Positions 21,032 to 22,432 of a stretch of DNA of 64,000 nucleotides are shown in pieces (the first letter of the stretch is position 1; the number at the start of each line of letters is the position of its first letter). Origin of the DNA: Acidovorax sp. RAC01 (GTDB lineage: Bacteria > Pseudomonadota > Gammaproteobacteria > Burkholderiales > Burkholderiaceae_C); the NCBI RefSeq assembly GCF_001714725.1, contig NZ_CP016447.1:3343501-3407500 (forward strand), read 5' to 3'. The translations under genes and the position numbers were made by a program. The notes beneath the pieces are model-generated. The model was not told where the DNA came from, made no database searches, and saw nothing but the letters and a program-made list of their open reading frames with translations.

Positions 21032-22432
21032 ATGACCACCAACACCGATGCGTATTTCATGCAGCTTGCGCTGGCCGAGGGGCAGGCGGCTGCGCGTGCA
21101 GGCGAGGTGCCTGTGGGCGCCGTGGTGGTGCAAGGCGGTCAGGTCATTGCCACGGGCCGCAATGCCCCGGTGGACGGCCACGACCCGACCGCCCACGCCG
21201 AGATCGTGGCGCTGCGCGCAGCGGCGCAGCGGCTGGGCAACTACCGGCTGGACGACTGCACCCTGTACGTGACGCTGGAACCCTGTGCCATGTGCAGCGG
21301 CGCCATGCTGCACGCGCGGCTGGCGCGGGTGGTGTTCGGCGCGGCCGAGCCCAAGACCGGCGCAGCCGGATCGGTGCTCAACCTGTTTGCGCATGAAAAG
21401 CTGAACCACCGGACCGTGGTGCAGGGCGGCGTGCTTGCCGATGCGTGCGCTGCACTGCTCGGCGACTTTTTTCGGCAGCGGCGCCAGCAGCAGCGTGCCC
21501 GGGCACTGGCCAGCCACCCGCTGCGCGACGACGCGCTGCGCACCCCTGATGCTGCCTTTGCCGGCCTGCCCGGCTACCCCTGGGCGCCGCACTATGTGAG
21601 CGACCTGCCCAGTCTGGGCGGCCTGCGTATGCACTACCTGGACGAAGGCCCGCCAGATCCGATGACTGCGCCACGCACCTGGCTGTGCCTGCACGGCAAC
21701 CCGGCGTGGAGCTATCTGTACCGGCGCATGCTGCCCGCTTTCATCGCCGCCGGTGACCGCGTGGTGGCACCGGACCTGATCGGCTTTGGCAAAAGCGACA
21801 AGCCCAAAAAGGAGTCGGCCCACCGCCTGGGATGGCACCGCCAGGTGCTGCTGGAACTGGTGGAGCGCCTGGACCTGCAGCGCACGGTGCTGGTGGTGCA
21901 GGACTGGGGCGGCATCCTGGGCCTGACGCTGCCCATGGAAATGCCCCAGCGTTTTGAAGGCCTGCTGGTGATGAACACGCTGCTGGCCACGGGCGATGTG
22001 CCGCTGTCGCCCGGCTTCGTGCAGTGGCGCGCCATGTGCCGCGACAAGCCGCTGTACGGCGTGGGGCGGCTGTTCGGCCGCGGCAACCCGCATCTGACGC
22101 AGGCGGAGTGCGCTGCGTACGATGCGCCGTTTCCCGACCGTGGCTATCGCGCTGCGTTGCGGGCCTTTCCCGAGCGGGTGCCTGCCGCGCCGGATGACGA
22201 AGGCGCAGCGGTATCGCGTGCCGCGCGCGACTTCTGGCGCCAGCAGTGGCAAGGCCGCAGCCTGATGGTGGTGGGCCCGCAAGACCCGGTGCTCGGCCTG
22301 GCCACCATGCAGGCCATGCGGCAGGAACTTCGCGGCTGCCCGGAACCGTGGGTTCTGCCTGCCGCTGGGCACTTCGTGCAGGAGCATGGCGAGGCCATTG
22401 CGGCGCGGGCTGTGGAATACTTCGCGCACTGA
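21032..22432 (+). CDS. tadA: tRNA adenosine(34) deaminase fused to a haloalkane-dehalogenase-like alpha/beta hydrolase
   Basis: 466 residues in one uninterrupted frame. Residues 1-~160 are Tad[11 protein letters not shown], zinc/catalytic HAE (55-57), PCAMC (84-88), [10 protein letters not shown]; it deaminates A34 to inosine in tRNA-Arg. Residues ~175-466 are an alpha/beta hydrolase of the haloalkane dehalogenase group: [11 protein letters not shown] (oxyanion/halide Asn223), [12 protein letters not shown], nucleophile Asp291 in VVQDWGG, candidate acid Asp418 in VGPQDPVLG, and His447 in [11 protein letters not shown]. The aspartate rather than serine nucleophile, followed by Trp, is the dehalogenase hallmark. 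E. coli TadA is ~167 residues, so the second half is a true extension. There is no stop or internal start of obvious strength at the junction (about nt 21510-21570). Preceded directly by a repeat, without a strong ribosome-binding site. Confidence 0.9.

Follow-up and report, generated by a model that had tools for sequence, protein, structure and literature searches.

In the window analysed here, a stretch of 64,000 nucleotides from the genome of Acidovorax sp. RAC01, the tRNA-editing deaminase TadA and a haloalkane dehalogenase of type HLD-I form a single polypeptide. The fusion is widespread in the family to which this genome belongs, the catalytic residues of its dehalogenase half have been lost repeatedly, and a linker and several residues that set the fused domain apart from free dehalogenases have stayed in place even where catalysis is gone. 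We think it rather probable that the dehalogenase of the window protein, itself probably active, is part of a fused domain that gained a second, non-catalytic role, and that many lineages subsequently lost catalysis.

TadA, from which adenine base editors derive, usually consists of a minimal enzyme on its own. Here it occurs naturally with a large domain at its C terminus, whose active site is complete or lost depending on the species; this offers a ready experiment in how the domain of one enzyme may turn into a non-catalytic partner of another that modifies RNA, and the repeated losses supply close relatives that can be compared as matched pairs. An effect of the domain on editing would point to a hitherto unrecognised layer of wobble-inosine formation; without such an effect, the fusion would be a clear example of an enzyme caught on a gene other than its own. 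The protein is already in the databases: 'putative bifunctional protein : haloalkane dehalogenase [Ramlibacter sp.]' (P0167) and 'tRNA adenosine(34) deaminase TadA [Acidovorax sp.]' are the same two-domain protein. Such names give one half or 'bifunctional' and are silent on catalytic loss and internal starts, and the one-sided labels conceal one of the two halves and also, in many species, the loss of an active site. Full-text searches of one literature library, judged by the openings of abstracts, found no paper on a TadA-dehalogenase fusion.

The fused gene of the window

The frame runs from ATG to stop without an internal stop in the ORF translation (Table 1). A sequence-only reading had described it as one intact frame joining TadA to a dehalogenase-like hydrolase, and this proves to be a true fusion, with both halves passing their NCBIfam cut-offs: the TadA equivalog NF008113 matches aa 4-159 with 209.4 bits (cut-off 150), and the haloalkane dehalogenase subfamily NF002043 matches aa 167-464 with 317 bits (cut-off 265). 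The closest solved structures by sequence are E. coli TadA 1z3a, over aa 7-160, and the dehalogenase 2xt0, over aa 169-464.

Table 1. Features of the fused gene and its downstream neighbour (positions in the window; aa, residues of the fused protein)
Feature	Position	Strand	Length or basis
Complete fused ORF, TadA + HLD-I haloalkane dehalogenase	21032..22432	+	466 aa
TadA domain, aa 1-160; zinc/catalytic H55, E57, C85, C88	21032..21511	+	NF008113
Linker motif PLRDDALR, aa 163-170; without start codon	21518..21541	+	motif comparison, start scan
HLD-I dehalogenase domain, aa 167-466	21530..22429	+	NF002043; AF2 model vs 2xt0
Nucleophile Asp291 (QDWGG)	21902..21904	+	alignment
Halide-binding Trp292	21905..21907	+	alignment
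Second halide-binding Trp332 (cap, FVQWR)	22025..22027	+	alignment
Catalytic acid Asp418	22283..22285	+	alignment
Catalytic base His447	22370..22372	+	alignment
Fusion-specific Lys259	21806..21808	+	residue frequencies
Fusion-specific His264	21821..21823	+	residue frequencies
Fusion-specific Gly371, then Tyr372, in APFPDxGHRA motif	22142..22147	+	residue frequencies
LD-carboxypeptidase (S66), ldcA, 3' of the fusion	22585..23514	+	Pfam PF02016/PF17676

With the TadA enzymes of E. coli (1z3a) and S. aureus (2b3j) the window protein shares the whole domain, the equivalog assignment and the zinc site, including its HAE and PCxxC motifs and all four zinc/catalytic residues; it differs by the added C-terminal dehalogenase domain, natural TadA chains among the matches listed being 144-183 aa long. 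The H, E, C and C of this site are intact in all 78 fused proteins of the family survey described below. The window's own genome has three deaminase-family places with one strong TadA match (140 bits; the others 41 and 30), so that its editing enzyme seems to be present only as the fusion. TadA is essential in E. coli, and its classical substrate is tRNA-Arg with the anticodon ACG. A tRNA-Arg(acg) gene is found in the window's genome (L324), and the TadA half is predicted to convert A34 of this tRNA to inosine.

The HLD-I type is defined by an Asp-His-Asp triad plus two halide-binding Trp in HLD-I positions, and alignments to 2xt0, 7avr and 1edb recover this full pentad as D291-W292-W332-D418-H447, in which we take D291 to be the nucleophile, W292 and W332 the halide binders, D418 the acid and H447 the base, as in HLD-I enzymes. 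The triad named in the earlier reading is present, as is its HGNP motif (aa 221-224). An AF2 model of the whole chain has a mean pLDDT of 85.5, and a Foldseek search with this model returns DppA 2xt0 as the top match (TM 0.93 by target length). Pentad, cap and fold are shared with DppA (2xt0), DpaA (7avr) and DhlA (1b6g), from which the window domain differs in being fused behind TadA and in carrying PLRxDALR, K259, H264 and G371, which few or none of 30 free HLD-I sequences have. The dehalogenase half, keeping all five pentad residues, lies outside the pentad-less class of fusions and is probably active on a haloalkane-like substrate, as predicted from its sequence.

The two active sites are thus complete, as had been proposed, and the intact pentad rules out a decayed piece. 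Deaminase and hydrolase Pfam domains occur together in 120 of the 120 homologues listed (of 7999 scored), many of them named Acidovorax. Across 15 within-genus pairs from the window's genus, dN/dS is 0.12-0.31 for TadA and 0.09-0.27 for the hydrolase, indicating purifying selection on each half and hence that both are maintained. The two-domain homologues and the selection on both halves contradict a frameshift splitting the genes, which the earlier reading had considered, and rule out an assembly artefact. A scan for promoters and terminators gave no signal above shuffled sequences.

Distribution of the fusion and repeated loss of the pentad

We surveyed 145 genomes of the family from 141 genera and obtained a TadA match in 134 genomes from 130 genera, nearly one per genus; the other 11 genomes were dropped, and the family counts given here come from this unselected set. 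TadA stands alone (at most 237 aa) at 56 of the 134 loci and is joined to a dehalogenase-derived domain at 78, of which 33 keep the pentad and 45 do not. The search for the two-domain arrangement across genomes, proposed in the sequence-only reading, therefore finds it in 78 of 134 genomes of the same family, and the statement that the two functions have no known connection needs amending, given how widespread the fusion is and that its added domain has conserved residues of its own.

Around the 56 unfused loci, a six-frame search of the fetched stretches for four motif patterns turned up no remnant of a dehalogenase. Unfused TadA proteins (e.g. L095, L107, L120, L123) often, in an uncounted share, end in an acidic tail, IP[TAV]G[ED][AV]..[LI][DE], which suggests another C-terminal TadA peptide in sister lineages. 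In some genomes of the family rated 90-100% complete (G006 and G055, and G042 and G211 at 100%) TadA went unmatched even with the threshold relaxed to 1e-8, reflecting either true absence or an assembly gap. One pentad-bearing fusion (L201, JASGCM010000002.1) lies in a record titled as an Alphaproteobacteria MAG, perhaps a mislabelled bin.

Outside the family, family f3 (4 genomes) is the only one with matches that span the two halves among 300 genomes of the order (E <= 1e-64). A further 19 genomes of that survey match the hydrolase half alone, the gene being free-standing at 9 of 9 fetched loci, and among 299 genomes of the phylum (E <= 1e-60) it is free-standing at 16 of 16 loci outside the family. 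Where a genome has both a free relative and a TadA match (20 genomes), these are separated by a long distance or sit on different contigs.

The 45 fusions without the full pentad have mostly lost more than one residue: His is missing in 44, nucleophile and His together in 43, and the positions of the cap Trp and the His are both gaps in 32. One protein (L073) keeps the His and has lost the nucleophile, and another (L163) shows the reverse by alignment. These proteins remain long, with 333-579 aa (median 390) and a single shorter member (L096, 271 aa). That gene (in genome G068) has an in-frame stop at about position 1083, after SDKPKRESFH, within the reduced hydrolase half, and the conserved motif continues past the stop. 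Pentad-less forms occur in Comamonas denitrificans (L203), Tepidimonas sediminis (L207), Malikia granosa (L206), Rhodoferax koreense (P0139) and R. ferrireducens (P0183), and pentad-bearing forms in Ottowia beijingensis (L193) and Polaromonas (L198, L199).

Both states are found side by side within genera. Beyond the unselected set, 20 loci were chosen for a truncated look, and 20 others, plus some more, partly because their genera looked mixed. Among 27 genera with at least two typed members, 6 are entirely pentad-bearing, 10 lack the full pentad and 11 are mixed, a share that is biased by the choice of loci, as the existence of 11 mixed genera is not. Loss of the pentad has thus recurred. 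The TadA-only tree requires the fused rows to switch 17 times between having and lacking the pentad, at least 3 of these switches being forced by the 6 of 131 inner branches that are starred; because so few are starred, the case for repeated loss comes mainly from the contrasts within genera. Genus g88 holds a graded series, GWWDH, GEWDH and GEWDA followed by loss of the cap, and in genus g16 GWWDH and GTNDH stand alongside DWWDH. The simplest order we infer from these cases is that the nucleophile changes first and the body of the domain is lost later.

The gene downstream of tadA is usually the same with or without the fusion. In the fetched stretches ldcA follows tadA at 28 of 33 pentad-bearing, 39 of 44 reduced (His-lacking) and 53 of 56 unfused loci, and it follows the fusion in all four genomes of family f3; ldcA is therefore the usual neighbour of tadA, and the dehalogenase sits between the two. 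The f3 fusions have residues of the free type, without K259, H264 and G371 and without the PLR part of the linker, and to judge by their sequences look like a young state; they and the main-family fusions reflect either one old event or two insertions. The domain can also be lost cleanly: in one genome of genus g32 (G157) TadA ends right after its C-terminal helix and ldcA comes next, whereas the other three sampled members (G031, G239, G307) match across the whole fusion. At least one clean loss has hence occurred after the fusion, and this counts against a second role, as do two genomes with TadA alone and of ambiguous placement (G029 in genus g30, G037 in genus g38).

Residues and linker kept without catalysis

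To compare residues we used 30 free HLD-I sequences, 33 pentad-bearing fusions and the 44 reduced fusions; free sequences were trimmed at the match start for residue frequencies, and the linker was compared on untrimmed frames. K259 has frequencies of 0.00 in free, 1.00 in pentad-bearing and 0.95 in reduced proteins, H264 of 0.17, 1.00 and 0.93, G371 of 0.03, 1.00 and 0.95, and L195 of 0.17, 0.97 and 0.86; H372, a Tyr in the window protein, follows with 0.10, 0.79 and 0.80. The linker PLRxDALR is found in none of the 30 free sequences, in 31 of 33 pentad-bearing and in 42 of 44 reduced fusions. GxGxSDKP, H221, W226, P366 and P368 are also strongly kept in fusions and are old HLD residues, GxGxSDKPK being retained in 41 of 44 reduced proteins. 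A C-terminal AVEYF is at best weakly fusion-specific: the strict pattern occurs in 8 of 33 pentad-bearing, 14 of 44 reduced and 0 of 30 free proteins, and a broader one in 18, 17 and 4.

Residues specific to the fusion are thus nearly invariant even without catalysis, which suggests from sequence comparison that the fused domain has a second, non-catalytic role, and we infer that the residue set forms a docking or binding surface gained after the fusion. The hld gene would have come to lie between tadA and ldcA and then joined the 3' end of tadA, after which the domain would have gained a non-catalytic role serving the TadA half, most likely by docking on the TadA C-terminal helix and steadying the protein or helping it to hold the tRNA. 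Many lineages would then have lost catalysis, the nucleophile changing first and the cap and C-terminal half going later, as the graded cases suggest, while the fusion-specific residues stayed. More specifically, and only tentatively, since we give it somewhat less than an even chance, the dehalogenase may be an accessory domain of the tRNA editor, acting in tRNA grip, dimer formation or substrate selection and becoming a pseudoenzyme once catalysis is lost, with the window protein as a double-duty intermediate. The likeness to ADAT2/ADAT3, in which a deaminase is paired with a non-catalytic module, is one of principle only, ADAT3 being a deaminase-family subunit and not a fused alpha/beta hydrolase. 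In this eukaryotic A34 deaminase, chains of which are among the structural matches listed, ADAT3 is described as an inactive partner in the abstract of PMC12404733.

Several results speak against such a role. Within genera, the hydrolase half of pentad-less pairs has a higher dN/dS than TadA in 34 of 35 cases, reaching 0.68 (the boundary between the halves failed for the pairs of genus g92 and for L172-L173, the latter being left out). A recognisable PFPDxGH motif is absent from 7 of 44 reduced proteins, and there is no basic net charge favouring RNA binding (42 of the 44 reduced fusions used). For a reduced protein, AF2 models the hydrolase half poorly, and the Foldseek and VIA rows shown cover the TadA part, which is no evidence that the fold of the other half is gone.

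The fusion may instead be without function, the halves sharing only an mRNA and a chain, with the hydrolase decaying in frame once it is useless and its leftovers reflecting folding constraint or slow drift. This would account for the faster evolution and large deletions of pentad-less forms, and for the in-frame stop of the 271-aa gene; the faster hydrolase halves, the clean deletion in genus g32 and the missing basic charge keep the reading alive. We nevertheless consider it unlikely, at roughly one chance in four, for dehalogenase folding gives no explanation of why reduced fusions keep, nearly without variation, residues that free HLD-I enzymes seldom or never have. GxGxSDKPK also persists in nearly all reduced fusions, and only one of the 45 pentad-less proteins falls below 333 aa. 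If the domain were useless, clean loss might also be commoner than the remnants retained in 45 of 78 fusions.

Possible internal starts and neighbouring genes

The sequence-only reading had also pointed to a possible internal start. This fails for the window gene, which has no ATG, GTG or TTG from where the TadA helix ends up to DALR. Many of the relatives with a pentad do have a candidate start there, and a strong Shine-Dalgarno (SD) sequence often precedes it. An in-frame linker ATG just 5' of the dehalogenase occurs in 14 of 33 pentad-bearing and in 0 of 43 scannable reduced genes (one, L086, was unscannable; Fisher p ~1e-6, uncorrected for kinship). An SD of at least 5 bases precedes 9 of 15 linker ATGs, compared with 5 of 411 ATGs elsewhere inside these pentad-bearing genes and with 54 of 600 non-ATG linker codons (p ~2e-6; 3 of 44 reduced proteins, without the regex motif, were dropped from this control). 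In a second set, from which 4 of 72 proteins were dropped for the same reason, a linker ATG is present in 9 of 37 pentad-bearing proteins and 1 of 31 others, with an SD of at least 5 bases in 3 and 0, respectively. All four f3 fusions have an SD and ATG at the dehalogenase start. At the inferred upstream starts of the 33 pentad-bearing genes the SDs are weaker, without a match of 5 or more bases, which limits what SD strength by itself can tell about the use of a start.

The linker ATG of these relatives, often with its ribosome-binding site, means that the dehalogenase may also be made separately, and judging from these signals many pentad-bearing relatives may produce a free dehalogenase besides the fusion. 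The window gene itself could then yield two proteins, the fusion being mainly a coding overlap, as the start signals of the relatives and of all four f3 fusions would favour; we find this very improbable, because its linker has no ATG, GTG or TTG and the five other typed members of its genus have no linker ATG either. As part of the explanation that we prefer, and with the same measured confidence, we hold that the window gene makes only the fusion.

Least probable of all is an action of the hydrolase on a modified nucleoside, the tRNA or a TadA product, a form of the recruitment that the earlier reading had ventured: only the physical fusion and the pentad kept in 33 of 78 fusions favour it, and it is unsupported as a general rule because 45 of 78 keep the fusion without the full pentad, the TadA site being intact in each. 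The domain is also a normal HLD-I whose nearest structures are solved haloalkane dehalogenases.

Other genes near the fusion were also noted. Just 3' of the tadA-hld/ldcA pair, positions 23579-24565 (+) hold an IS5-family transposase frame (NF033581, 326 bits, cut-off 140). At 17222-19267 (-) lies a large U32 peptidase-family protein with DUF3656, whose closest NCBIfam match is the tRNA hydroxylase TrhP at 148 bits, far below the cut-off of 534. Positions 25448-26452 (+) combine an adenylate/guanylate cyclase catalytic domain and an FHA domain in one frame.
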